From contig NZ_CP159837.1 of the NCBI RefSeq assembly GCF_040564635.1, forward strand, positions 1,119,001-1,183,000: a stretch of DNA of 64,000 nucleotides, written 5' to 3'. The position numbers were made by a program, and so were the translations under genes. Positions 12,860-26,746 of the stretch are shown one piece after another. Each line of letters begins with the position of its first letter. Within the stretch, counting starts at the first letter, position 1. The DNA is from Planktothricoides raciborskii GIHE-MW2 (lineage in GTDB: Bacteria; Cyanobacteriota; Cyanobacteriia; Cyanobacteriales; Laspinemataceae). The notes below the pieces were generated by a model. That model had not been told where the DNA came from. It saw only the letters and a program-made list of their open reading frames with translations, and ran no database searches.

Positions 12860-13243
12860 CTAAGATTGCTCTTTTAAAATTGCTCCTTCAAGGTTGGCAG
12901 TTTTTAAATAAGCTCCTTCTAAATTGGCTTGACTTAAATCAGCCCCTCTCAGGTCTGCTAAACCCAGAAAAGCGCCGCTTAAATTGGCTCCTTTTAGTAT
13001 CGCTCCTTTAAGGTTAGCAGCAAATAACCAAGCCCCGCTTAAATTGGCATCCCGGAGGTTGGCGCCACTTAGGTTGGCATTTTCTAAATCTGCATCGGCT
13101 AAATCTACTTTTTCGAGAATAATTTTGGCTAAATTAGCATCGCTCAGTTGTCCTTGATGGAGAGAAATAGAACTAAAATTTCTCTCTCCAGATTGATATC
13201 GTTTTAGCAGTTCTTCCGGTTGCATATTGCAGTCGATCTCCAA
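12860..13243 (-). CDS. Pentapeptide-repeat protein
   Basis: This 127-residue protein is almost entirely A(D/N)Lxx pentapeptides ([20 protein letters not shown]...), which form a right-handed quadrilateral beta-helix. Such proteins are frequent in cyanobacteria and a few mimic DNA, but nothing specific points to that here. The first 35 residues are non-repeat. It is the last gene downstream of dndD and the ThiF-like gene on the same strand (91-bp gap), so it may be part of that transcript. Confidence 0.9.
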
Positions 13244-13334
13244 TTGATTAATTTATTTAACCACTCTAGTTTATGGAGAAATTTAGCGGTTGCGCTGGTA
13301 AAACTAGCCACTTGCTTAAGTGGCACATAATTGG

Positions 13335-13982
13335 TCAGGACTGAGCCGCGAGAAACGGTTTAATGGCAAAATCTCCTAATGTGACAGTAAAACTCTGCTG
13401 TTTTTCGGTGGCGGTAAAGTTGATGATGACTTCACAAGCAACGGCCACTGTTAGGGTGACTAAATTTCTGGCTAAGGGATATTCACAAATGTCATCGTTG
13501 GTGGGTGAGGGGACGCGATAATCTTGGTTCCAGATGATTTCGGCATAGTCACTGGCCATTCCCAGATGCAAACAAGGAATGTTGTTGGTGGTGCAGTAAT
13601 CTTTGACCGCTTGGCGGCTAATGCTATTGTCAAAGGTATCAATGACTAATCCCGGTTTACTAATAAGTTGCTTGGCATTTTGGGGGGTTAATTCTTTGGC
13701 TTCAATTTCCAGTTTTACCCCTAAAGCCCGATAAAGACTATTGGCTAAGATTTTGGCTTTGAATGCGCCAATATCTGAGCGATAATAGGGTTGGGTGGAT
13801 AGGTTGCGTTCTTCTATGCGATCGCGATCGATGGTTTTGAGTTGACTAAAGCCACTGCGGGCTAAACTTTCCGTAAGATTAGCCCCTAGTGCCCCGGCGC
13901 CGCACACTGTCACGGGCAATGTTTTTAGTTTTGCCATGACTTCTGATGTTCTATAGATTTGTTCGTGAAAAAATATAGACAT
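13335..13982 (-). CDS. ThiF/MoeB/HesA family adenylyltransferase (E1-like)
   Basis: This 215-residue protein has the nucleotide-binding VTVCGAGALGANLTESLARSGF (GxGxxG plus helix), followed by IDRDRIEERNLSTQPYY and KAKIL, then VIDTFDNSISRQAVKD. These are the E1-like order of motifs, including the arginine and aspartates that bind ATP-Mg. It is shorter than MoeB/ThiF (about 250) and no CxxC zinc pairs are visible. E1-like enzymes adenylate the C-terminus of a ubiquitin-like or peptide substrate and often prepare it for sulfur transfer. It follows dndD by 86 bp on the same strand. No ubiquitin-like sulfur carrier is adjacent. Confidence 0.8.
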   Translation of the reverse strand: MSIFFHEQIYRTSEVMAKLKTLPVTVCGAGALGANLTESLARSGFSQLKTIDRDRIEERNLSTQPYYRSDIGAFKAKILANSLYRALGVKLEIEAKELTPQNAKQLISKPGLVIDTFDNSISRQAVKDYCTTNNIPCLHLGMASDYAEIIWNQDYRVPSPTNDDICEYPLARNLVTLTVAVACEVIINFTATEKQQSFTVTLGDFAIKPFLAAQS

Positions 13983-14068
13983 TTTTTTAGTTTTTTCTAT
14001 GGTAAATCACCGGCAAAAATATCGATCGCTATATGTGCATTGCCCAGCTATTTTTAGCTTACCTTTGT

Positions 14069-16072
14069 TTACCAAAAATAACCGGGTTCAATGTTGGTTT
14101 GGCGGGTTTCTCCATTATATTTTAGGAGATATTCCCGGGCGATCGCCTTTTGTTTGCGGAGTTTTTTCACTTCCTCTTTGCCTAATTCTGTATCGGTAGA
14201 TAGGAGAATTACTTGATGAGAAGCGGCGGGAAAATAACGTTCAATTAAGTTTTGCCGGTGTTCGGAGTCGAGACGACCTAATGGGGTGTCAATGGCTACC
14301 GGAAGTTCCCGTCCCGAAACCCGGGCAAGTCCCCAGAGAAAGGCGATCGCTAATAGTTGTTTTTCCCCGGCAGAAATTCGATGTTTGGGCACGGGTTCTC
14401 CCTGGAGATCGTAGAGAGAAAGGCTAAAGTCTTTGGTGTCAATGGCTACCCGGTGAACTAAATCTAATTTATGGAGTAAATAGCGGAAACAGTCGGTGAC
14501 TTCTTTTTCGAGTTTACTGAGTTTTTTGATGGTTAATTTTTCCCGAAATAGTTTTAGGGTGTCTTGGACTCTGGCCGCTGTTTTAATTGTATGTTCATCT
14601 TGTTGGCGTTCAATGGTGTTGTCTACATAATTGATTAATTCTTTTTTGGCTTTGTTAATTTCTCGTTCTAGTTGGACAACGAGATGCTGGGCGTTTTCAT
14701 AGTTAATTCTGGCTTTGATTAAGGCGGTTTGGGTCTTTTGTACCGCGTTTTTTAACTGTTCATAGATTTCCGGCGGTGGGGCAACTGCCAGTTGTTTTTC
14801 TATGGCGTTGAGTTGCAGTTCTAGCTGGTCAATTTCGGCGCGAGTTTGTTGGGCGGATTTGATGCGATCGCCTAAGTCAGATTGCACCACAATGCCCAGA
14901 GTTTCTAAGGCTTTTTCGTCCGCTGCTAACCAGGCATCTTTTTCGGCACCAATTTGATCTAATAGTTGTTGGTTTTCGTCCGCTAAAAATTGGTCAATTT
15001 TTTTGATTTGGTCGGCTTTTAATTTTAAGTTTTTGATATACTCTAAGAGGCGATCGCCCGTTGCTTGGACTAAAGCTTGAGCATTTTTTGCCTGTTGTCG
15101 CTTGGTTTCTCTTTCCCCTTGGGTACGGGCCGCTATTAGCAATGGTTGAATTAATGCTAAGGGTAATTTTTCGGCGGCTAATTCTCGTAAATATTGGCGC
15201 GATCGCTCAATTTGCCCCTCTAAATCGGCTTTTTGTCTTTCCAGGTCTGCTTCTCTTGAGGCAATTTTACCCCCTTCCGAGAGAAAGCGATCGCTGGCTT
15301 CTTTGGCTTTTTTTTCGGCTTTTTCCAACTGAGTTTTTAGGGTAGCTTCCTCCGCTTGTGCCTCCGCTAACTCAGCCTGATATTTTTTCAGCTTGATGTC
15401 AATTTCATCTAAACTAATTTTTTGTTGGAAATTCGCCAGCTTCTTTTGTTTCCGCTTGACGAGAATATCAATATCAATAGATAGCCTTTCGATTAATTCC
15501 AAGCCCAGCAGGGACTCGATCGCTTTGACCACCGTCGAGGGGGGAACCTCTTGTTCTGCTAACTCTTTCACCTGTTCCCCATCAAATAAGAATAGGTTAG
15601 AAATTCCCAGGGGCAGCAGATTTTCAATATACTCGTCCCAAGTTTCCGTTAGATAATCGTCTTTCCAGTAATCTTGCTGACTTTCATTCCACTCTAAAAT
15701 CCCTAACGTATCTTTGCCGTCTTTGGGGTTTTTTGTCCAATAGCGGACAATTCTTAATTCCACCCAGCGATTGCGATCGATATGTTTAAAAGCCAACTCC
15801 AAACGGCTTTTATCCGTAAACGGAGATTGGCGATTCACACATTGAGAGAGAAAATCACCATAACTCAAATTTCCCCGCGTGGAACATTGCGCCCGTGACC
15901 CATATAAAGCGAGGCGAATTGCATCCATCAGGGTAGTTTTTCCGCCCCCATTCATGCCGCCAAATAGGATAATCGGGCGGGTTTCTCCAGCTTCGGCTTC
16001 CGGGTGAAAGTTAATGATTTGTTTGCCCACATAAGGGCCAAAATTTTCTAAGACAAGTTCAGTGAGAATCAT
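14069..16072 (-). CDS. dndD: DNA phosphorothioation ATPase DndD
   Basis: This 667-residue SMC/Rad50-like ATPase has Walker A GGMNGGGKTT (38-47). A long coiled-coil-rich middle region (about 200-500) is dominated by Ala, Glu, Lys, Gln and Leu. The C-terminal signature ISAGEKQLLAIAFLWGLA and Walker B VAIDTPLGRLD follow. These features and the adjacent dndC fit DndD, which supplies ATPase activity to the DndCDE complex that puts sulfur into the DNA backbone. The gene lies 56 bp after dndC. Confidence 0.93.
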   Translation of the reverse strand: MILTELVLENFGPYVGKQIINFHPEAEAGETRPIILFGGMNGGGKTTLMDAIRLALYGSRAQCSTRGNLSYGDFLSQCVNRQSPFTDKSRLELAFKHIDRNRWVELRIVRYWTKNPKDGKDTLGILEWNESQQDYWKDDYLTETWDEYIENLLPLGISNLFLFDGEQVKELAEQEVPPSTVVKAIESLLGLELIERLSIDIDILVKRKQKKLANFQQKISLDEIDIKLKKYQAELAEAQAEEATLKTQLEKAEKKAKEASDRFLSEGGKIASREADLERQKADLEGQIERSRQYLRELAAEKLPLALIQPLLIAARTQGERETKRQQAKNAQALVQATGDRLLEYIKNLKLKADQIKKIDQFLADENQQLLDQIGAEKDAWLAADEKALETLGIVVQSDLGDRIKSAQQTRAEIDQLELQLNAIEKQLAVAPPPEIYEQLKNAVQKTQTALIKARINYENAQHLVVQLEREINKAKKELINYVDNTIERQQDEHTIKTAARVQDTLKLFREKLTIKKLSKLEKEVTDCFRYLLHKLDLVHRVAIDTKDFSLSLYDLQGEPVPKHRISAGEKQLLAIAFLWGLARVSGRELPVAIDTPLGRLDSEHRQNLIERYFPAASHQVILLSTDTELGKEEVKKLRKQKAIAREYLLKYNGETRQTNIEPGYFW

Positions 16073-16128
16073 GGTTGATTATATATGTGGTTATGGGTTG
16101 CGAATCCGTTATCTATCTGTTGTTCAAA

Positions 16129-17706
16129 TCAATCATCACCATCCACCGCATCCACTCCTTGCTGCCCATATTTAACGTCCGACCAAGGGTTTAACTCAAG
16201 CTGTTTCACCTCATCAATACCCCCACCACCAGCGGCAACCTTTAAATCCCGCTGATAATAAGCAGTTCCTACCGCGTCTTTTTCATCACGGGAACTACTT
16301 TCAAAGCAACCATCCAACGCTTCAAAAATGCCGCGTCGTTTAACGTAATAGTGGGATTCGGTGCCAATCAGTTTTGACATCAGTTCTAAATACATCGAAT
16401 CTTCAGCACAAATTTCCTGAAGAATTTCCCATTCATCGCTGCCTAATAGTTTTTTGGCAACTCCTACTCGCGGGTCATTAAAAGGTTGCCCGGTGACTTC
16501 TTCATAGATTTTCGGCAAACTGTCATCTAACTCGTGTTTTTCTTCCAGCCAAATCCGGCGAATTTCGCTGAGTTCGTCATCAGAAATCAGGGTAATATCC
16601 CTCATGTCTTCCGGGGCAGTTCGCCGAATTTCTGTTTGCGCTTCCAGCAGTTTCCTGAGCAAATATTCTCGATATTCTTTAGTATATGGCCCACGAATCG
16701 GTTTGACAGAAATTTTGCCATCAATATTCCGTTCAAAGAGTTGAACCGTACCCCAAATTCGGCGAAAGTCTCTTTTATCGTGTTCGTTCCATATATCTAA
16801 TTCGAGACGAAAATCAACGAGAGGCTGTAGCCATTCTTTTTCTTCGTCATTTTGGATCATAGCGTTTAAAGATTTATCGCTATCTACCAGGGTGCAAACC
16901 CAGCAACCAAACCGTGAACTACCACAACTAGGGGTTGAAGTATCTACTACTAACGGACATTCATTATCCGCAGTGGCTCCTCGATACATGGCGAATAAAT
17001 CTTTATTGCTATGTCCCCAGGGATTTTCCCATTGCATTAGATATAGCCAAACTTCATCAGTCCGCCAATCTTCAATTGGGCTATAAAGTAAAGAATTCGG
17101 CAAATGAGGATGTGGACTCAGGCGATCGCGCACTCTTTTAGCTTCACGCTTAGTCATAATATTAGCGCGATTAATACTTTCAGTTTTGCGAATACCTAAA
17201 ACTACAATTGCCTCACCATTAGAACGGACAATATTGCGAATAAATCGGTTAGATGGATCGATCTTTAATCGCGAAGTACACCATCTAAATTTGTGACGAG
17301 GGGCTGGATAACCTTTGCCAATTAAACCAGTCCAATATGTTTGAGAAATTTCTGGCTTTAAAAGATGTGCCTGAATCGGCATTTCTTTTTCTTTTGCTGC
17401 TTTTCTCAGACGCTCCATCGATTTTTTCACCCAAGCAGCAACAATCGGATTCTCAACTAATGTATCTGTAGTAATTACATAAATGGTTTTTTGGCGTTTT
17501 TCTTTAGGCAATTCGGCGATCGCATTCCAAACCAACTGTAAAACAGAGGTACTATCTTTTCCCCAAGATACACCAATAATCCAAGGGATATCATCCGCAC
17601 AATATAATTCTTGAATTTCAGCGGTTAAAAATTTGATATCTTCAACTAGCTGATCAACACTACGTCCTGGGAATAGTAATGTTTGTGTCTCTGCCACTTT
17701 TTTCAC
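16129..17706 (-). CDS. dndC: DNA phosphorothioation sulfurtransferase DndC
   Basis: This is a 525-residue member of the PAPS-reductase/ATP-pyrophosphatase family. The PP-loop SWGKDST (47-53) adenylates the phosphate acceptor or sulfur donor. RWCTSRLKI and the later CPLVVDTSTPSCGSSRFGCWVC give the cysteines that ligate the 4Fe-4S cluster in DndC. The length and motifs agree with characterised DndC. It starts 6 bp after the stop of the HNH gene, so the nuclease and DndC are almost certainly co-transcribed. The C-terminal 100 residues end in an acidic tail. Confidence 0.95.
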   Translation of the reverse strand: MKKVAETQTLLFPGRSVDQLVEDIKFLTAEIQELYCADDIPWIIGVSWGKDSTSVLQLVWNAIAELPKEKRQKTIYVITTDTLVENPIVAAWVKKSMERLRKAAKEKEMPIQAHLLKPEISQTYWTGLIGKGYPAPRHKFRWCTSRLKIDPSNRFIRNIVRSNGEAIVVLGIRKTESINRANIMTKREAKRVRDRLSPHPHLPNSLLYSPIEDWRTDEVWLYLMQWENPWGHSNKDLFAMYRGATADNECPLVVDTSTPSCGSSRFGCWVCTLVDSDKSLNAMIQNDEEKEWLQPLVDFRLELDIWNEHDKRDFRRIWGTVQLFERNIDGKISVKPIRGPYTKEYREYLLRKLLEAQTEIRRTAPEDMRDITLISDDELSEIRRIWLEEKHELDDSLPKIYEEVTGQPFNDPRVGVAKKLLGSDEWEILQEICAEDSMYLELMSKLIGTESHYYVKRRGIFEALDGCFESSSRDEKDAVGTAYYQRDLKVAAGGGGIDEVKQLELNPWSDVKYGQQGVDAVDGDD

Positions 17707-17712
17707 CTCTGC

Positions 17713-18687
17713 TTATGGTCTAAATATATTTTTTCTATGCCAGTCTAATGCTTTAATACTGGGAAAATATTGCTCTAAATTTGGTAAAGAAATATTTTCA
17801 AAATGAAACTCTTTTAATGGCTTGGCATTCGGTGAATCTTCTTGTAAATCTTCAGCTACTAAAATTCTATAATTATCATCTATACTCAACCAACCGCGAT
17901 CGAATGCCCAATGATGATTTTTACACAGTGAAAGTCCGTTATTAATATGACTGTTATAAAACTGTGCAAATGGTTGAATATGCGCTCCATCGACAATATT
18001 TTGAGTTAAGTTTCTTGTGACTTTTAATCTACAAATTGCACATCGGTAATCATAGACATGAACAACTGCTTTACGAAAGAAAGAATTTCTGACTAATGCT
18101 TTTCTGATGACTAACTTAGGTTTTTTCTCGAAATCGGAAAATTCATCATCTTGTGGCTGTTGGTTATGGTTTTCTTGTAATGATTCATTGACTCGTAAAA
18201 TATCTTCTATTTCTTGTTGGTAATCGGCGAACCAGACAGCAATCAGAGTATCAATCAATTCTTGCAGAGAATTATTATCTTGCAATAATTCAAATAATTC
18301 TAGATCCAAACTAGCATATTCAACTGCTTCTTTTAGCTTATTGGTAGTTTTGGGTTGTAAGCCATTAAATTTGTCTGTAAATTTTAAATGCCAAAATCCC
18401 TCACTTTGTAAATGAAAAAATGGATAATGTAAACCGCCTTTATACGAGGAATCAGACGATAAGACATTCCAGTATTTTTTAAAGTTATCAATTAATTCAT
18501 CTGAGACAAATATTTTATTATCTTGGATTGTTCCTTGTGTAATTAAATCAATTACTGATAAAAGTAAAATAGGCTTATAATAAGCCTGTCCCTTGGTTTT
18601 ATTCCGACTTACATTCAAACTAGAAAAAATTTCTGAATAGTAATTTATATCCCGATTCTGATTTTTTGATGATTCACTGTTACTCAT
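17713..18687 (-). CDS. HNH endonuclease with sulfur-binding-domain-like N-terminus
   Basis: This 324-residue protein has two parts. The N-terminal half contains YYKPILLLSVIDLITQG (37-53), NVL and HYPFFHLQSEGFWHL (87-101). From memory this matches the KPxLLL...PFxHLxxxGFW pattern of phosphorothioate-DNA-binding restriction enzymes (SBD-HNH type such as ScoMcrA/EcoWI). The C-terminal HNH domain (about 205-275) has CAIC, VDGAHIQPF, NNGLSLCKNHHWAFDRG. It is the first gene of the operon with dndC. The domain boundaries are by eye. The HNH call is firm and the sulfur-binding call needs a profile search. Confidence 0.8.
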   Translation of the reverse strand: MSNSESSKNQNRDINYYSEIFSSLNVSRNKTKGQAYYKPILLLSVIDLITQGTIQDNKIFVSDELIDNFKKYWNVLSSDSSYKGGLHYPFFHLQSEGFWHLKFTDKFNGLQPKTTNKLKEAVEYASLDLELFELLQDNNSLQELIDTLIAVWFADYQQEIEDILRVNESLQENHNQQPQDDEFSDFEKKPKLVIRKALVRNSFFRKAVVHVYDYRCAICRLKVTRNLTQNIVDGAHIQPFAQFYNSHINNGLSLCKNHHWAFDRGWLSIDDNYRILVAEDLQEDSPNAKPLKEFHFENISLPNLEQYFPSIKALDWHRKNIFRP

Positions 18688-19006
18688 TTTTCATTTCCTC
18701 TAGAAAATCGATCGCCCACTAATACCACTAAAGAGTCATGTTCTGGGGTGAACGACCCACCCAAACACTGTCACCAATCAGCAATTAAGCAAATCGCAAT
18801 TGGGGAATATCGGCAAAAGCGATCGCCTCTACTCTGGAACATAGTTGCACCCTAAAATATTGACAAAAAAACAAAAATGTGCATTAGGCATCGGCGTCCT
18901 AGGTAGTTTTTATCTAGACCGCATTATTTTTTAAAAACTGCAAAAGTATCGTAGCATATTAACCAGCGATTTTCAAAAACTTTACAAAAATTGCTCCTCA
19001 GCAACC
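18688..19006. promoter_or_regulatory. Divergent promoter region of the two dnd transcription units
   Basis: This 319-bp spacer lies between the HNH-dndC-dndD operon (minus) and the DndB-like gene (plus). A TTGACA occurs at 18860-18865 on the plus strand, but a clear -10 is not seen. It includes two HIP1 octamers. No small gene is convincing here. Confidence 0.4.
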
Positions 19007-20608
19007 ATGAACAGCGACCCCAAACAACCTCCGAACATTGCCAAGCAAATACTGGAACAGGATCAGCAAGACCGAGAAGCCCTAGCCCTGCTATTAGATC
19101 GCCATTTGTCCAGAAGCGATCGCCTCCTAGTCCAGCAGACTCACATGGGCAACACCGAAGCCTTCATTGGATCCGTGACCTTAGAATGGCTAGACAGTCG
19201 AGTCCGTTTTGCCTCGCAACTGCCCCTATTCCGCAAAAAATTTGACCCGGAAACCGACAACGTAATCCGGGACGAGGAAACCATCGACGATATCTTGCAA
19301 CGACCCCTCGACTGGTCTAGACAAGCGCCCCTCAGCCTGTATCTGGTCGCCCGCAAAGCCCACAAATTCCCCGCCGTCCTGGTTGTCCTCAGCGCCAGTT
19401 GGGTAGACGACCCCCACGCGGACGAATGGGACGAACAAGGACGCGCCCGCCAATCCGCCGCCGATTTCACCCCATTAGATAAAGATGGCACCGTAGGACT
19501 ATTAGACATTACTGAAAAAGTCTCTATTTTTGCCCTAGATGGCCAACACCGACTCATGGGCGTTCAAGGGTTAATGCAACTAATTAAAACCGGCAAAATT
19601 CAACGCTATAACAAACAGAAAAAGGCGATCGGTAATCCCATCACCATTGAAGACCTACAAAAGCAATATCAAGTTGAACCCAACCATGTCCAAACTTTAG
19701 CCTATGAAAAAATCGGCATTGAATTTATCCCCGCCGTCGTGAAAGGGGAAACTCGCGAAGAAGCCCGCTTGCGAGTTAGGTCTATTTTTGTCCATGTTAA
19801 CCTCATGGCCGTTAACCTCAGCAAAGGCCAATTAGCGGTACTAAATGAAGATGATGGTTTTTCCATTGTGGCTCGGAAAATTGCCGTCCAACATCCTTTA
19901 TTTAAAGAAACTAAATATCGCAAACCTCGCGTTAATTGGGATAGTGCTACGGTCGCCAGCAAATCCACAGTTTTAACCACTTTACAAGCGCTCAAAGATA
20001 TGTCTGAGCGTTACTTATCTGCTCGTTTTCCCACTTGGCAAACTTCAGACAATAAAGGGTTAATTCCCATGCGTCCCGAAGATGAAGAACTAGAAGCTGG
20101 AGTGGCTGAATTTAGTCAGCTTTTCGACCATTTAAGCAAGTTATTAAGTTATGAACGTTTAGAATATGAAGCCGAAACCCCAAAAATGCGCCGATTTAGC
20201 CATGAAAAAAGCGGCGGTGAGGGGAATTTTCTTTTCCGTCCCGTGGGTCAGGTTGCTTTTGCTCAAGCGATGGGTATTTTAGTCTATGAAAAAGGATTTT
20301 CTCTGGAGAGTTTATTTGAAAAACTTAGCCGGTTTGATACAGACGGCGGTTTTAGTGGCATGGAACATCCCCAGTCTATTTGGTATGGGATATTATACGA
20401 CCCAAATCGCAAGCGGGTGTTAGTGGCTGGTCGTGATTTAGCGGCCAAGTTGCTGGTGTATCTTTTAGGGGGAATTACTGACAATTATGAGCGAGCTAAT
20501 CTGCGGAAAGAAGTGGCGATAGCTCGTACTTTTGGCAGTCAAGCCATGAACTTTGATGGTAAATTTGTGGAGCCGAAAAAAATCGTTTTGCCTCCTATTT
20601 TGGGGTAA
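19007..20608 (+). CDS. dndB: DndB-like DGQHR-domain protein
   Basis: This 533-residue protein has the defining DGQHR (178-182) in the context LDGQHRLMGVQGL. Further family segments include IEFIPAVVKGETREEARLRVRSIFVHVNLMAVNLSKGQLAVLNEDD. In Dnd systems DndB is a transcriptional repressor and regulator. This one is longer than the roughly 365-residue classical DndB, so it may be a DndB paralogue rather than a strict orthologue. It is transcribed divergently from the HNH-dndC-dndD operon, as many repressors are from their targets. Confidence 0.8.
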   Translation: MNSDPKQPPNIAKQILEQDQQDREALALLLDRHLSRSDRLLVQQTHMGNTEAFIGSVTLEWLDSRVRFASQLPLFRKKFDPETDNVIRDEETIDDILQRPLDWSRQAPLSLYLVARKAHKFPAVLVVLSASWVDDPHADEWDEQGRARQSAADFTPLDKDGTVGLLDITEKVSIFALDGQHRLMGVQGLMQLIKTGKIQRYNKQKKAIGNPITIEDLQKQYQVEPNHVQTLAYEKIGIEFIPAVVKGETREEARLRVRSIFVHVNLMAVNLSKGQLAVLNEDDGFSIVARKIAVQHPLFKETKYRKPRVNWDSATVASKSTVLTTLQALKDMSERYLSARFPTWQTSDNKGLIPMRPEDEELEAGVAEFSQLFDHLSKLLSYERLEYEAETPKMRRFSHEKSGGEGNFLFRPVGQVAFAQAMGILVYEKGFSLESLFEKLSRFDTDGGFSGMEHPQSIWYGILYDPNRKRVLVAGRDLAAKLLVYLLGGITDNYERANLRKEVAIARTFGSQAMNFDGKFVEPKKIVLPPILG

Positions 20609-20642
20609 TTTGGCAACGGATGGGATAACTGATGGGGTAATG

Positions 20643-20909
20643 GAAAAATAAAAGGTGATTTTTTTACCACAGAGACACAAAGGACACAGAGAGAAAAACC
20701 ATTATCCCATCGGTTGCCAATCACTATTTATGACTAAAACAGTTAATCTATCCGTTGGCAACTATCCGCTGCCGATCAAAAAATAAAATGTGATTTTTTT
20801 TACCACAGAGACACAAAGGACACAGAGAGAAAAACCATTATCCCATCGGTTGCCAATCACTATTTATGACTAAAACAGTCAACCCATCCCTTGCCAACTA
20901 TCCGCTGCC
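20643..20909. repeat. Tandem duplication with 136-bp period
   Basis: Two near-identical copies (about 20643-20773 and 20778-20909) each contain TACCACAGAGACACAAAGGA and the block ATTATCCCATCGGTTGCCAA. They fill the gap between two DGQHR genes and contain no gene. The ACCACAGAGACAC core is a familiar cyanobacterial intergenic repeat. Confidence 0.85.
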
Positions 20910-20951
20910 AACTGCCTAGGAGTTGCCAATTTTTACCCGCCCCATTAAACC

Positions 20952-23141
20952 TCAATTATCATCATCAAAATCAGACTCTTCATATGAATATTCACTTTCG
21001 TTTAAAGTGGAAATTTCCTGATTTAATGGTCTATCAAAATTCTCTAACCAGTCACTAAATTGCTGTGAAGTAATGCCAAACCATTTCCGACAAAATTTAC
21101 TCATCCGGTTTTTAGCCTTAACATTGGCTTTTTGTTGGCAAACTTTAGAAGTCATACTGGGATAATTCTTTTTCAGGGTTTTTTCTTCGTCTTTTACCAA
21201 AGCGTCTAAATACAATTTTCTTGCTTGACTTAAAAGACGGGCGATCGCCTCTTTTTCTTCCGGGGTAAATTCCTCGCTTCGAGAAACTTGCATAAACTCT
21301 AATAAGAGATACCGGAAATAGACCGCATCAGCGGGAGATAGTGTGGTAAAGTCTAAAAAAGCATAGTCTTGTTGGCGATCGAATATCTTAATCCGATCTA
21401 ATGATAATTCTAAGGCCAAATTCCAAGACCGGATCCAAACTTCAGCCCGTTCTTTAAAAGTCTTGGCATCATACCCTAAATCGTGTTTTAGACTCGCCAA
21501 AGTTAAGACCGCACCAGATAAAAAAGCCTGAGTAAACAGCCACTTGTAAATATTGTCGGCAGTTTTCAATAATTCATCATTAATTTCTCGTTTCCGGTTA
21601 AATAATTTCTTGGCACGTTCCTGCTCAAACTCTTTTTCTTTATATTGAATAATTTCCCAAGCTTTTACGGTTTCAGTTTTATCTTGAACTGTACCACCAT
21701 CCAAGCGAGCCGTTTGATTATTTTTTAACCATTGCTCGTGATCTTCTTTAAGAGTCCAGTAAATCCCTAACCCTTTGAACATCGCATCATTTGCCAAAAT
21801 AGCATGAGCCGCCCCAGCCGTCCAGTTATTTTGTAAGTCTTTTAAGGCTTCAATGTGACATTTAAACGGAAAAAATTCAGAAAAAATATTCATAATCACA
21901 CTGCCCCAGCCATCCCAAAACTTTTCAATTAATGTTTTTAACTGTGTCTTGGGAAAATGCTCATTCCTTAAATCATTTCTCACAAAAGCTATCGGCCCAT
22001 TCATTCCTTCATCGACGATTTCTGAATCCAGCCATTTATTAATTTCTAATTCATACTGAAGTCGCCGGTCTTTGTCAGTTTTTTTCGCGGTTCCTTGAAT
22101 CGTTTTATTCACATCTTTAATATACTTATCTGGCCCGCGTAATGCCCATTCTATAGCACTATTCAGCATCAAAATGCTGGCTAAAGCCGTCTTGCGAACT
22201 GGCACCCCTTCCCCTTGTTCATGGGGATAATCGTATTCAATGGCGTGCAAAGGAAACCGCGCATCTTTTGTGCGGAGATGATTTAAAAATTCCCTGACAA
22301 AAATAGACGTTAACTCGGAATCCGAAAGCAAAATCAATCGAGATTTACTGGGGGTTCGCGCATTCTTATTTACATCCACAAAAAGCTTCCGCGCCGCTTT
22401 ATGAGGATTTGGCCATAATGAATTGTCAGAGGTAGGGTGTGGAAACCAACAAATACAGACCGGAAATTCGATATTTTCCAACAAATCAGGGGGCGGATTA
22501 TTTAATAACTCGTTAATTCGTTTCTCATAAAAATAACGATAAGCCCCACCAGTCCCCGCATCCCAATTGCGATCGATAGTGCGACGAATCGCTAACAATG
22601 CCATTGCCCGATGTTGCCCATCAATCACCACCAGTTTAACGTGCTTAGTATTAAAATCTAAGCGACCTAGGGGAGTTTTATGCAGCATTTGATTATTCTT
22701 ATCCCAGAATTTTAACACCCGAAATGCCTCTCCATATTGCGTTTGTTCCCAGGTATTTCCATCAACCTGGGTAACTGAAATATCTAGATTTTCAGGATAA
22801 CTATCGATTGGATTTGGCCCATCAAACGGTAATACTGCTGCAAGAATCGGCGTATAAAATGCCGGACCGCCAAAATTGGGTTTAAGCAAATAATCGACTA
22901 AATCTGTGGCTACCCGGTAATCATCCAGATCCCGTTGCAGCAATTGGTTAAAATCCAGATCGTCAATATTGAGAACTTCGCGCACTGGGGCTAAATATTT
23001 AGTCAGAATGCCTTCGGGAGTAGTATCTGCTTTTAGCTTGGCTTTAGTCATTAAATAAGAGACTTTTCCGGCAAGGGTATGGAATTCGCCATAAGTTCCT
23101 TGAGTTTTAACTTCCCAATCTTGGATTGATGGACCTAGCAT
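20952..23141 (-). CDS. Large DGQHR-domain protein of the Dnd locus
   Basis: From ATG 23141 the protein has 729 residues; GGAG lies 11 bases before that start. An open frame 27 codons longer exists, but its first residues (SRPETRFLS) translate a dispersed repeat, so I reject it. VVIDGQHRAMALLAIRRT places DGQHR at 174-178, almost the same position as in the divergent DndB-like gene. FVDVNKNARTPSKSRLILLSD follows. The C-terminal half is helical and basic/acidic without a recognised domain, and ends in an acidic tail. It is probably a second DndB-family member with an added domain. Confidence 0.75.
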   Translation of the reverse strand: MLGPSIQDWEVKTQGTYGEFHTLAGKVSYLMTKAKLKADTTPEGILTKYLAPVREVLNIDDLDFNQLLQRDLDDYRVATDLVDYLLKPNFGGPAFYTPILAAVLPFDGPNPIDSYPENLDISVTQVDGNTWEQTQYGEAFRVLKFWDKNNQMLHKTPLGRLDFNTKHVKLVVIDGQHRAMALLAIRRTIDRNWDAGTGGAYRYFYEKRINELLNNPPPDLLENIEFPVCICWFPHPTSDNSLWPNPHKAARKLFVDVNKNARTPSKSRLILLSDSELTSIFVREFLNHLRTKDARFPLHAIEYDYPHEQGEGVPVRKTALASILMLNSAIEWALRGPDKYIKDVNKTIQGTAKKTDKDRRLQYELEINKWLDSEIVDEGMNGPIAFVRNDLRNEHFPKTQLKTLIEKFWDGWGSVIMNIFSEFFPFKCHIEALKDLQNNWTAGAAHAILANDAMFKGLGIYWTLKEDHEQWLKNNQTARLDGGTVQDKTETVKAWEIIQYKEKEFEQERAKKLFNRKREINDELLKTADNIYKWLFTQAFLSGAVLTLASLKHDLGYDAKTFKERAEVWIRSWNLALELSLDRIKIFDRQQDYAFLDFTTLSPADAVYFRYLLLEFMQVSRSEEFTPEEKEAIARLLSQARKLYLDALVKDEEKTLKKNYPSMTSKVCQQKANVKAKNRMSKFCRKWFGITSQQFSDWLENFDRPLNQEISTLNESEYSYEESDFDDDN

Positions 23142-23193
23142 TTTTTCGTTGACTCCTATATATATTGTTTCTGGGTTTCCCTGTGTGAGAGAA

Positions 23194-23262
23194 AGAAACC
23201 GGGTTTCTGGTCGGGAAACCAAAGTTAACGGTGGAACTTGAACAAGAAACCAGGTTTCTTGT
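23194..23262. repeat. Palindrome-ended dispersed repeat between two Dnd genes
   Basis: AGAAACCGGGTTTCT starts the unit and AGAAACCAGGTTTCT ends it; the interior differs from the 65-bp family. It separates the protein-4 gene from the large DGQHR gene and supplies spurious upstream codons to the latter. Confidence 0.75.
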
Positions 23263-23264
23263 TT

Positions 23265-23735
23265 TTACAGAAACTTGCTCAAATCAAAAGAAAACTGCCC
23301 GGTATCTTCCTGCTTAAACCGCTCAGAAATCAGCATTAACATGATTTGCTCGGTGTAGTCCACGGCGCCGCGCAATTCATCCCGCAAAATTTCTAACCCC
23401 CCATTGGCATATTCTTCAAAAATCTCCAGCCGTTTTTCCACCATTGTTTGGTCTAGAGTCCCCAGAATTTTCGCGTCTTTGGTTTCGGCGATCGCCAATA
23501 ATTTGATGGCGACATCGTACCCACGGGTGACAAAAATATCCAAGTTAATTGGGCCGGGATCTTTTTTAGAAATTTGTCCCAAAGGCGATCGCTTCTTGCG
23601 TTTTGCCCCCAAAGCCGCAGCAAACACCATCACATCCGCATAGGTGGGAAAGGGAGAGTTATTATTTTCTGAAGTAGTTAAGGATTTAATCAACTCAGCT
23701 TTATCTTTAGCAATCCTAATTTTCAGAGCACTCAT
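23265..23735 (-). CDS. DNA phosphorothioation-associated protein 4-like
   Basis: This 156-residue protein contains TYADVMVFAAALGAKRKKR, INLDIFVTRGYDVAIKLLAI and LEIFEEYANGGLEILRD. The pattern fits the small 'dnd system-associated protein 4' family found beside Dnd genes in cyanobacteria. I recall the family but cannot run a search. Its role is unknown. It sits upstream of the large DGQHR gene on the same strand, 123 bp before that gene's chosen start. It is not DndE, which is shorter and has a different basic N-terminus. Confidence 0.65.
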   Translation of the reverse strand: MSALKIRIAKDKAELIKSLTTSENNNSPFPTYADVMVFAAALGAKRKKRSPLGQISKKDPGPINLDIFVTRGYDVAIKLLAIAETKDAKILGTLDQTMVEKRLEIFEEYANGGLEILRDELRGAVDYTEQIMLMLISERFKQEDTGQFSFDLSKFL

Positions 23736-24092
23736 AAAACGGTTAGGCTATAATTAACGGCTATGATTAACAATAAAAAAGCGCTATAGATCATTATCTC
23801 ATATTTTTTAGCGATCGACACAAAATCTCCGCCCCCAAAAAATTAACCCAGCTATCCCGTATTTTTACGGAGAAATCATGGAATTATACGGATAGCAATG
23901 GCGTTTTCCCATGAAAAAGGGTGGACAATGCCCACCATAAGAAAATTTTAATGATCTATGCCCATAGAATTTTAAATTAAAAAATTACCGCCAATTGCCC
24001 ACCAAAGCAAACCCCGACCATAAACAAGGATGAAAGATTATATCATCCTTTAACCTTTTCTCATTAAAAATAAAAACACGAATATAATCAAC
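23736..24092. other. Intergenic region, no gene seen
   Basis: This is 357 bp of AT-rich DNA with the short inverted words ATGCCCACCAT and GTGGACAATGCCCACC near 23920-23935. I see no promoter or gene that I can support. Confidence 0.5.
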
Positions 24093-24673
24093 TTAATCGT
24101 TATACAAATCCGGCAAATGAAATCGAACCAATTCCACAAAATTTGGCGCATCAACTGCCAAAGCATTTAACACATCACTGACGCTAATTGGGGGTTGACG
24201 AAGCTGTTTTGCTTGTTCTATAATAATTTGCGTCATAATCTGCGGATTTTCATTAAATAAACAAATTAAAAATTGATCCGCTGACCAAGCTTCAATTTCA
24301 TAAATTGATAAAGCTGATGCGGGAAAATCTTTGAGATTGCTCGTCACAATAATATCAGCTTCAGCCATCACTGCTGCCGCGAGGATATGGCGGTCTTTTG
24401 GGTCATTTTTCATCTCTGGAATCAGAAATTCAAAACCCTTAACTGTAGCATTGGGGAAAAATTGGCGCATAGCCGATAAAAGTCGCTGTACTTGCTGGCT
24501 ATTCATCTTATCGGTTTTGAGCAGATTCCGATTTACTTCTTCAAGAATTGTCTCACTCCAATAAACAAAACATCATATATGCCTTTTTCCGCTGCACGCA
24601 GTAAAGTATCTCGCAGGGACGATTTAAATAAAATACAAGCGTCTAAGACCACTTTGAATAAACCTGATTTCAT
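24093..24673 (-). pseudogene. PIN-domain toxin gene, frameshifted
   Basis: From ATG 24673 the frame reads MKSGLFKVVLDACILFKSSL, a PIN-domain start with the first acidic residue, and continues to about 24565 (YDVLF). Translation then runs into a stop. In another frame the natural continuation WSETILEEVNRNLLKTDKMN appears and leads into the long C-terminal part (MKNDPKDRHILAAAVMAEADIIVTSN). A one- or two-base indel near 24560 therefore splits the gene. The HTH antitoxin-like gene lies 22 bp upstream. A sequencing error is an alternative explanation. Confidence 0.75.
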
Positions 24674-24695
24674 CAATCTATTCCCTATTAAGCGT

Positions 24696-25196
24696 TTATT
24701 CTGCTGATATTTTAGCGGTTGGTTCGCTTAACTCAGATCCCAGAAAATAAAGACCGGCATCATGGCTCATCTGGGCAATGTCTCTAATATTTTTATGCCG
24801 CAATTTTGCCCAATTTTTCTGATAATCAATTAGATGATCAAACTGAATTTTACGATTAAGTCCTTCTCCGGTACTCGGAATCTCACCATTTTGGAGTATT
24901 TCTACCATATGTTGCCGGGAAAAATTCAGTAAATAGGCAGCTTCATTGATGGTTAATGGCTGATGAAATGTTTCTATAACTACCCCTTTTCCCTGGTTAA
25001 ATTGATGGACAACTTGGCGAAGTAACTGCAAGATACACTGAGGCATTGGGATGGTTTCTCCGGTTTCTCCATCCAGGATTTGTAATTTGCGATCGGAGTG
25101 ACCATTATTCAGCATATTTAATATTTGTGCTAATTTGGCTAAATCAGCTTTTTCGTTTTCATCGGCAACAATGGGTTCAATATTTACTTCAGTCAT
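24696..25196 (-). CDS. HTH/excisionase-type antitoxin-like protein
   Basis: This 166-residue protein contains LTINEAAYLLNFSRQHMVEILQNGEIP and NRKIQFDHLIDY, the DNA-binding domain found in excisionase-like antitoxins paired with PIN toxins in cyanobacteria. The N-terminus is acidic and the C-terminal part (RDIAQMSHDAGLYF) is likely to contact the toxin. It is the first gene of a two-gene unit whose PIN partner is frameshifted, so the antitoxin may now be orphaned. Confidence 0.75.
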   Translation of the reverse strand: MTEVNIEPIVADENEKADLAKLAQILNMLNNGHSDRKLQILDGETGETIPMPQCILQLLRQVVHQFNQGKGVVIETFHQPLTINEAAYLLNFSRQHMVEILQNGEIPSTGEGLNRKIQFDHLIDYQKNWAKLRHKNIRDIAQMSHDAGLYFLGSELSEPTAKISAE

Positions 25197-26207: not shown

Positions 26208-26746
26208 TTAAAATTGTAGGTTGGATTGAGGCACGAAACCCAACACAAACCATAAAAATTCGTAGGGGCGAAGCATGACCGCAGTCAATTCATGGGTCTA
26301 ATCAATAACTTATATGCGGTCATGCTTCGCCCTTACAATATTTTACCCAATAAATTATCTCCTCTTGGGGCGAAACATGACCACAGTAAGGGCGAAGCCT
26401 GACCGCAGTCAGGGCGGCGTTGCATGACCGCAGTCAGGGCGGCGTTGCATGACCGCAGTCAGGGCGGCGTTGCATGACCGCAGTCCAATTAATATTTTAA
26501 GCAATAAGCTATCTGCGGTCATGCAACGCCCCTACAATATTTTAATCAATAAATTATCTATAGTTTTAACCAATAAATCATTGGCGGGAAAAATTACGAA
26601 TGGGCGATCGGTTAACTTAAATTGCCCGAATATTTCGATTCCGGGATCGGAATTGACAGATCGGTCAGAAATTTTCCCAGAGGCACACAGACCTGAACAT
26701 AAACCCGTAAAATAGAACAAAGTAAAAATAAACCTGTAATTTCTCT
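26208..26746. other. Intergenic region filled with inverted and tandem repeats
   Basis: It contains a 75-bp element (26262-26336) with 22-bp inverted ends GTAGGGGCGAAGCATGACCG.../...GCGGTCATGCTTCGCCCTTAC. It is followed by a 25-bp tandem array and another inverted right end at 26514-26535. The last 200 bp hold no element except the rseP leader. No gene is supported. Confidence 0.7.
26400..26484. repeat. 25-bp tandem repeat, 3.4 copies
   Basis: The unit TGACCGCAGTCAGGGCGGCG plus TTGCA begins at 26400, 26425 and 26450 and again, partially, at 26475. It looks like an expansion of one arm of the neighbouring inverted-repeat element. Confidence 0.85.

Follow-up and report, generated by a model that had tools for sequence, protein, structure and literature searches.

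How can a DNA phosphorothioation (Dnd) locus that holds dndC and dndD, but has neither dndE nor dndFGH beside them, belong to a larger system? The question is raised by positions 12860-23735 of a 64,000-nucleotide stretch of the genome of Planktothricoides raciborskii GIHE-MW2 (contig NZ_CP159837.1; hereafter, the window), for which the original prediction, made from the sequence letters, proposed a variant architecture with the restriction and sulfur-handling parts replaced. Comparison with related loci and genomes points to another answer: this is a real Dnd locus and, as judged from sequence, part of a Dnd-Pbe system of a known kind in an unusual state. A single phosphorothioate (PT) system, probably contiguous in the past, is probably now split into three pieces with parts that would act in trans, and the largest piece is in the window. 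Gene identities, open frames, gene places, conservation, linkage and co-occurrence were read directly from the genomes. Below, L and G numbers designate loci and genomes, respectively.

Phosphorothioation genes and the distant dndE

All genes named in the original prediction, that is, dndC, dndD, an HNH nuclease gene, a ThiF gene, two DGQHR genes and the gene of an unnamed protein 4, proved to be open frames in the described order and spacing (gaps of 6 bp between the HNH gene and dndC, 56 bp between dndC and dndD, and 86 bp between dndD and thiF). A scan of ten frames in 12860-25196 with NCBIfam, Pfam and PADLOC gave family matches that agree with these names, including those of the two DGQHR genes and the protein-4-like gene that flank the operon (Table 1). 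DndC and DndD exceed the cut-offs of the Dnd writer families with intact motifs, and the DndE described below also exceeds its cut-off. Six DndC cysteines (143, 250, 261, 268, 271 and 467) are kept in 80/80 aligned relatives, and in the same 80 the PP-loop SWGKDST retains its G at the third place and its K, D and S. No match of DndC to solved structures was found at E <= 0.01. DndD retains three ATPase motifs that are conserved in its relatives, which we take to be Walker A, signature and Walker B. The predicted absence of dndFGH from the locus was confirmed for the ten proteins of the NCBIfam scan; the genome-wide search for dndF (TIGR03238) gave no match, a weak negative since control genomes were equally silent, and the search did not extend to dndG and dndH.

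The second PP-loop place of dndC (window 17548-17568) changed at least 8 times on the DndC tree: it is W in the window, W or F in 18/80 relatives, and G also occurs. A link of the W/F form to the HNH gene, judged by eye, was not supported. In five genomes outside the order of Planktothricoides (G084, G099, G118, G135 and G155), a second PP-loop protein of ~400 amino acids (aa), scoring roughly 130-140 bits with the DndC family, is encoded ~4.5-7 kb from dndC on the opposite strand.

The genome search for dndE returned one intact copy at C1:3650236 (TIGR03184, 135 bits at a cut-off of 72), 2,514,939 bases from dndC, as a lone gene between dapB and a glutamate dehydrogenase gene (neighbour names were read from translations). 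It aligns over its full length with 31 DndE proteins from other dnd loci, and its structural model matches solved DndE structures with E 7e-6. In the sister locus L012, dndE stands directly behind dndD; the two dndE genes share about 86-87% identity over 130 codons with a ratio of nonsynonymous to synonymous substitution rates (dN/dS) of 0.10, on a branch that includes time preceding the move. For comparison, dN/dS against L012 is 0.15 for dndD, 0.23 for dndC and 0.10 for DGQHR1. The low ratio, the full-length gene and the linkage in L012 together indicate that dndE moved yet stayed under constraint. Loss of dndE from the genome is ruled out by this copy, and a dndE remnant behind dndD was rejected, as no DndE match was found among frames of at least 50 aa in L005 or L011. 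Thus, what holds of the variant architecture is a real, unusual Dnd locus without DndFGH in it and a single dndC in the genome, whereas dndE has been retained 2.5 Mb away.

Protein 4 and the Pbe genes at 4.61 Mb

The genome encodes a second DndD-like protein that scores 170 bits with TIGR03185, below the DndD cut-off, has a CIC hook, and matches PADLOC PbeC with 1090 bits. Its gene lies at 4.61 Mb as the last in the order pbeA, pbeB, pbeC: (i) PbeA (513 aa) matches the TIGR04095 helicase family with 662 bits (cut-off 600) and PADLOC PbeA with 541 bits, (ii) the small PbeB-like frame of 82 aa overlaps pbeC, and its relatives immediately precede pbeC in many loci, and (iii) PbeC is of the CxC type. 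Right behind pbeC is a MazG/PRA-PH-like gene (PF01503, 22 bits).

Family membership and gene order identify protein 4 (TIGR04062) of the window as PbeD, the fourth member of the PT defence module PbeABCD. In 26/26 named loci showing both genes, pbeC precedes the protein 4 gene on the same strand, at distances from 54 bp to 4.1 kb. A protein-4 relative was found in seven plasmid records, in five of which the gene order was read: the relative is directly behind a PbeC-like ATPase on the Haloprofundus, Halococcus, Pontibrevibacter and Rhizobium plasmids, and four annotated genes separate the two on the Pseudanabaena plasmid (the remaining two records are from Arthrobacter and Ruegeria). Two haloarchaeal plasmid proteins match TIGR04062 with E 5e-11 and 8e-12, below the family cut-off. 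The window protein has 156 aa; PbeD of PMC6459918 has 152 aa and no assigned function. TIGR04062 has been described as an uncharacterised, strictly dnd-dependent family (PMC3226654); in the literature searched, no publication names it PbeD, and protein 4 has no PADLOC match.

PMC10853773 describes PbeD as a cognate of DndE that has two ribbon-helix-helix units, and protein 4 is probably DndE-like, the structural evidence for the DndE fold itself being suggestive. The first PDB match of its AlphaFold2 model (pLDDT 84) in Foldseek is DndE 7x4e with E 0.75, and six chains of three DndE structures are among the first 30 PDB matches. The loop between helices 1 and 2 comprises 11 residues in the protein 4 model and 5 in the DndE model, a longer loop being the direction stated for clade 2 in PMC10853773.

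The presence of PbeA, PbeB and PbeC at 4.61 Mb and of PbeD in the window means that a restriction-like module exists in two pieces, contrary to the proposal that the restriction part of the locus was simply replaced.

Two minor observations concern these genes. In five loci (L029, L070, L076, L080 and L082), the gene of a divergent PbeC is followed by one of a second PbeD-like family (about 135-147 aa); the profile comparison of this family with protein 4 gave E 6e-5 and probability 64. Upstream of pbeA, L158 12754-14017 contains short frames with repeated words that may have eroded the start of pbeA.

Contiguous clusters and scattered genes

Comparisons were made with 80 named loci, the best 80 of 445 by DndC match, and with a class sample of 368 genomes, 55 of them from the same order. 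In four loci (L033, L035, L039 and L041), pbeA, pbeB, pbeC, pbeD, the HNH gene, DGQHR1, dndC, dndD and dndE are contiguous within about 12 to 15 kb, and L061 has the same set with a DndB-family gene in place of the HNH gene. Six loci (L028, L060, L061, L067, L085 and L087) have a MazG-like gene that separates pbeC from pbeD. Since the MazG-like gene is still behind pbeC at 4.61 Mb and pbeD is in the window, the break would have occurred between these two genes, leaving three pieces: pbeA-pbeB-pbeC-mazG-like at 4.61 Mb, pbeD to dndD in the window, and dndE at 3.65 Mb. We infer the direction, from a single cluster to a split one, by comparison of loci and not from a dated tree. Among the 56 named loci with at least 9.5 kb upstream, the sequence retrieved around dndC includes pbeC in 29.

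In the order, the families over cut-off are dndC in 47 genomes, dndD in 47, dndE in 46 and protein 4 in 46 of 55. Protein 4 and dndC occur together in 45 genomes, as do dndE and dndC, and the co-occurrence has a Fisher p of 1.4e-6, a guide only, since the genomes are related. Physical linkage varies: of the 47 genomes with dndC, 24 have dndE no more than 20 kb away from it, 12 have it at a greater distance on the same contig, 9 carry it on a different contig and 2 lack it; the respective numbers are 27, 10, 8 and 2 for protein 4, and 32, 7, 7 and 1 for dndD. In six of the 47 genomes (G022, G157, G184, G300, G323 and G351), dndC, dndD, dndE and protein 4 are all at least 184 kb apart. Outside the order, 25 genomes have dndC; 24 of them also have dndE, and 18 have protein 4. 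Scattered, vertically inherited cyanobacterial dnd genes have been published before (PMC8569181, PMC8546630); a four-way split including protein 4 was not found in the accessible parts of these two papers.

Several observations weigh against a single split Dnd-Pbe system. The PADLOC PbeC models also rank the window DndD highest (894 bits, followed by 753 bits for DndD); as the label does not by itself separate the two, it is the neighbouring genes, the hook and the score that carry the PbeC assignment. Long PbeA proteins (684-714 aa) have an N-terminal part whose phospholipase D (PLD)-like nature rests on one Pfam match of 29 bits and on PMC10853773, and this part has no match in the 513-aa PbeA or in the L158 frames; short PbeA proteins (about 480-525 aa) are common among the named loci. 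The fold of protein 4 has no PDB match at E <= 0.001 in Foldseek, and its profile comparison with DndE failed to link the two (probability 1.9). Locus L012 lacks pbeC and protein 4 in its 10 kb upstream, which leaves the order of the moves open. The co-occurrence also has exceptions: dndC is found without protein 4 in G164 (a partial dndC alone) and G231, and without dndE in G051 and G164, whereas G198 has protein 4 and dndE with no dndC over cut-off. Outside the order, protein 4 is found in 21 genomes and dndE in 15 genomes that lack dndC.

Proposed system

The earlier cluster would have had the order pbeA-pbeB-pbeC-pbeD-[SBD-HNH or DndB-family gene]-DGQHR1-dndC-dndD-dndE, where SBD-HNH is the HNH gene with a sulfur-binding-like domain described below. 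The biochemical steps, all of which we infer, may be as follows. DndC and DndD, together with the in-trans DndE and a presumed housekeeping cysteine desulfurase, would modify the backbone of a short DNA motif with sulfur. PbeC and PbeD would scan the DNA and, with PbeA and PbeB, halt replication of unmarked DNA. The SBD-HNH protein may be an accessory PT-reading nuclease whose gene occupies a former slot of a DndB-family gene, DGQHR1 may be a DndB-like regulator or guard, and the ThiF gene would be a passenger.

SBD-HNH gene and its slot

The N-terminal half of the HNH protein matches the sulfur-binding domain (SBD) SBDHga 8h0l with E 5e-18, and its C-terminal half matches TagI 6ghs with E 1.5e-4. 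The catalytic residues GAH, NNG and HH are retained, the NF045808 score is below the membership cut-off (Table 1), and neither a SAD/SRA domain nor a DUF262 NTPase-like part was found in the Pfam scan. The original suggestion of an alternative nuclease is thus plausible, and the sulfur-binding-like domain sharpens it. In an alignment of HNH proteins (frames >200 aa and >150 bits), 27 proteins, the window protein included, span the binding pocket, whose places, in ScoMcrA numbering (H116, R/K117, P165), were assigned by eye on the motif pattern, without a ScoMcrA alignment. On this assignment, the R117-like place is K in 25/27 (window K) and Q in 2/27, the P165-like place is P in 27/27, and the H116-like place is Y in 17/27 (window Y), H in 8/27 and N in 2/27. 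H116 is among the most conserved residues according to PMC6224610, which also describes the roles of the pocket residues; the Y of the window thus counts against plain SBD-HNH membership.

Strong SBD-HNH relatives (at least 200 bits) were found in 20 genomes of the order, 18 of them within 20 kb of dndC. One of these 18, in G164, spans residues 8-294 of 324 and adjoins the partial dndC. The other two are on another contig (G205) and, in a genome without dndC over cut-off (G345), in pieces with stops. Published surveys report SBD-HNH genes near dnd in under 3.6% of cases, with avoidance expected (PMC7461809), and wHTH(SBD)+SAD(SRA)+HNH nucleases at dnd loci in 698 taxa (PMC10853773). Among the 80 loci, with those having a short gene at a contig end left out, 19 SBD-HNH genes are whole and 10 are short or split; the respective numbers are 55 and 1 for dndD, 58 and 2 for DGQHR1, 26 and 2 for PbeC, and 38 and 0 for protein 4. 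Here dndD is the fairer comparator than dndC, whose wholeness in all 80 loci is partly built into their choice. On the DndC tree (76 scored rows), the presence of SBD-HNH requires no fewer than 14 changes.

Over two long matching stretches, the window and the locus of Planktothricoides sp. SR001 (L011) share 98.5 to 98.8% identity. They diverge at about 17060-18830, where L011 has a DndB-family gene on the other strand in place of SBD-HNH; the L011 version of DndC also differs in form over its first two fifths. The L011 slot protein passes the cut-off of PF14072 (DndB, 248 bits) and misses that of TIGR03233 (66 bits, cut-off 328), and we therefore call it DndB-family. The slot of L012 holds a DndB-family gene too, and since both relatives have it, the SBD-HNH state of the window is probably the newer one, SBD-HNH having probably been brought into the slot by recombination. 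Mutual exclusion of SBD-HNH and DndB-family genes was not supported after correction for the DndC tree. The plain count over 75 loci (5/80 with <2.5 kb upstream were left out) gave 2 with both, 27 with SBD-HNH only, 19 with DndB only and 27 with neither (Fisher p 0.0013); on the tree, 11 independent pairs, ~2 of them informative, were nearly all in the expected direction, with median p 0.5.

A role for this nuclease can be proposed with much reserve: the writer-linked SBD-HNH branch might be a single-protein, PT-gated restriction enzyme. Its SBD would read the strain's own mark, which would not lead to cutting of self DNA but would restrain the nuclease or license it to act on unmarked DNA. 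The protein would thereby assume the nuclease role lost by the short cyanobacterial PbeA, in a defence system whose parts act in trans from three places. Taken jointly, these claims seem doubtful to us.

ThiF gene

The ThiF gene occupies the place where many relatives have dndE, and it is also beside dndD in L011. Strong relatives (at least 250 bits) are present in 34/368 genomes, 13 with dndC over cut-off and 21 without, and only in the genome studied here is the gene within 20 kb of dndC; 35 of the 47 dndC genomes of the order lack a strong relative. Of the 33 further genomes that carry a strong relative, 12 were examined for the neighbourhood of the gene, and in 11 of these 12 loci ThiF is behind a ~280-aa family without a Pfam match, a second conserved family often being near. 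The role of a sulfur-handling part, assigned to ThiF in the original prediction, was rejected on this distribution and on the other neighbour family, and the gene is probably a passenger.

Loci L131-L142 reveal a conserved cyanobacterial pair of a ~280-aa protein and a ThiF/E1-like protein (11/12 loci), often near a third family that is TROVE-like at best. The two neighbour families, F1 and F2, have no Pfam or NCBIfam match, and the match of F2 to TROVE proteins is non-significant (E 0.04).

Alternative explanations

SBD-HNH could be an enzyme of the type IV style, directed at cutting foreign PT DNA of another sequence context. It would be harmless to the host, since the motifs differ, and would sit by the writer in a recombination slot. 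Characterised SBD-HNH enzymes do cleave near PT sites (PMC7461809), the pocket is mostly kept (K and P at the R117-like and P165-like places), and the presence of the gene changes often, with 10/29 short or split against 1/56 for dndD. However, a free type IV enzyme would be expected away from dnd more often than in two of 20 strong relatives, and the two relatives without a whole writer, those of G345 and G164, are in pieces and beside a partial dndC, respectively. We regard this explanation as a serious possibility, though not the favoured one; an accessory nuclease that is costly and frequently lost is compatible with both it and the PT-gated role. The version of the original prediction, in which ThiF replaces the sulfur handling and HNH replaces DndFGH, is favoured by the position of ThiF closely behind dndD on the same strand, shared with the near-identical L011, but the numerous ThiF genomes without dndC, the numerous dndC genomes without ThiF and the different neighbour family make it very improbable.

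Two further readings concern decay of the locus and the use of the marks. According to one, the locus is a decaying relic with an inactive writer and a tolerated nuclease, as could be suggested by the breakup into three places with dndE out of the operon, the short PbeA and the W at the second PP-loop place. Yet all frames are open, dndE shows constraint against L012 (with the share of pre-move time in that branch), six genomes retain dndC, dndD, dndE and protein 4 though all are apart, and both the W/F form and the short PbeA recur in relatives, so that decay appears unlikely. According to the other, proposed in PMC8569181, the PT marks serve chiefly antioxidant protection or gene regulation and are vertically kept, with defence secondary. 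The occurrence of dndC over cut-off in 47/55 genomes of the order, the retention of unlinked genes together, and the vertical inheritance and lack of dndFGH in cyanobacteria given by the same paper are in its favour, whereas the presence of pbeC in the fetched stretch of dndC in about half of the loci (29/56) opposes it, and we consider it possible but not likely. A split Dnd-Pbe defence system with its parts in trans is the reading that we retain as probable.

Relation to known systems

The closest known system is DndCDEA-PbeABCD of Haloterrigena jeotgali A29 (PMC6459918), which likewise combines a DndC, DndD and DndE writer with PbeA, PbeB, PbeC and a PbeD of similar length. Unlike it, the system described here is in three pieces millions of bases apart, its PbeA is without the long N-terminal part, SBD-HNH and ThiF genes are additionally present, and the cluster has no dndA. 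The varied, broken gene order, the lack of dndFGH and the vertical inheritance are shared with the cyanobacterial dnd loci of PMC8569181 and PMC8546630, where in some Microcoleus 40 kb or more separate dndBC from dndDE and a "type-III restriction enzyme" gene is close by; an SBD-HNH gene, PbeD and a Pbe-Dnd split, all present here, are not mentioned in the accessible parts of these papers.

The association of a PT-reading nuclease with a dnd locus is already known from the wHTH(SBD)+SAD(SRA)+HNH proteins (PMC10853773), whereas the protein studied here has no SAD/SRA match and its gene is ahead of dndC or behind pbeD. The EcoWI-type nucleases (PMC7461809) share the layout of an N-terminal sulfur-binding domain, here a sulfur-binding-like one, and a C-terminal HNH domain, but rarely neighbour dnd, whereas the branch studied here keeps close to the writer genes and its window member scores below the NF045808 cut-off. 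DndI and SspE (PMC11662687) are likewise PT-sensing-type HNH effectors encoded with a PT writer, a property that is predicted here; they have an N-terminal DUF262 NTPase in contrast to the SBD-like domain. As far as the literature searched goes, three findings are new: that protein 4 is PbeD, that the system is split in three, and that the SBD-HNH branch is so tightly linked to the writer.

Defence and modification genes are usually pictured as tight travelling cassettes. Here the PT writer and its partners are retained together in genomes though megabases apart, and searches by gene neighbourhood would therefore score such systems as incomplete. An unnamed protein gains an identity as PbeD. 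The conserved pairing of a PT writer with a putative PT-reader nuclease fits poorly with the mutual avoidance described in PMC7461809 and well with PMC10853773, and it offers a direct way to test how a cell keeps both.

Other features of the locus

Table 1. Genes at 12860-25196 of the window and their family matches
Gene	Coordinates	Strand	Assignment	Family matches
Pentapeptide-repeat gene	12860..13243	-	Pentapeptide-repeat protein, probably unrelated to the locus	PF00805 89 bits
thiF	13335..13982	-	ThiF/E1-like, probable passenger	PF00899 91 bits
dndD	14069..16072	-	ABC/SMC-like writer ATPase	TIGR03185 642 bits (cut-off 246)
dndC	16129..17706	-	Phosphorothioation sulfurtransferase, PP-loop SWGKDST	TIGR03183 681 bits (cut-off 290)
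SBD-HNH	17713..18687	-	Sulfur-binding-like domain and HNH nuclease	NF045808 121 bits (cut-off 180); PF13391 42 bits
DGQHR1	19007..20608	+	DndB superfamily, divergent from the dnd operon	TIGR03187 176 bits; PF14072 44 bits
DGQHR2	20952..23222	-	Large DGQHR/DndB-superfamily-like, lineage-specific accessory	TIGR03187 27 bits, PF14072 19 bits (both below cut-off)
pbeD	23265..23735	-	Protein 4, TIGR04062	TIGR04062 184 bits (cut-off 74)
PIN-like gene	24093..24506	-	PIN-domain-like protein bordering the locus, also in L011	NF046100 71 bits (cut-off 170)
Helix-turn-helix gene	24696..25196	-	Helix-turn-helix protein by the PIN gene	TIGR01764 26 bits, PF12728 25 bits (both below cut-off)

DGQHR1 relatives (E <= 1e-30) were found in 33/368 genomes of the class, all 33 of which carry dndC; the match of DGQHR1 to the DndB equivalog family TIGR03233 is 18 bits and does not reach the cut-off of 328. 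DGQHR2 has a strong match in L011 and weak matches in L064 and L089. Between the convergent DGQHR genes, there is a tandem pair of ~131 bp units at 20644-20909, in which each copy matches the L011 counterpart of the other at ~94%. The PIN-like gene and the helix-turn-helix gene upstream of it (24093-25196) may form a toxin-antitoxin pair at the locus border and are also present in L011, and short repeated DNA with multiple matches to L011 is present at 26273-26559.

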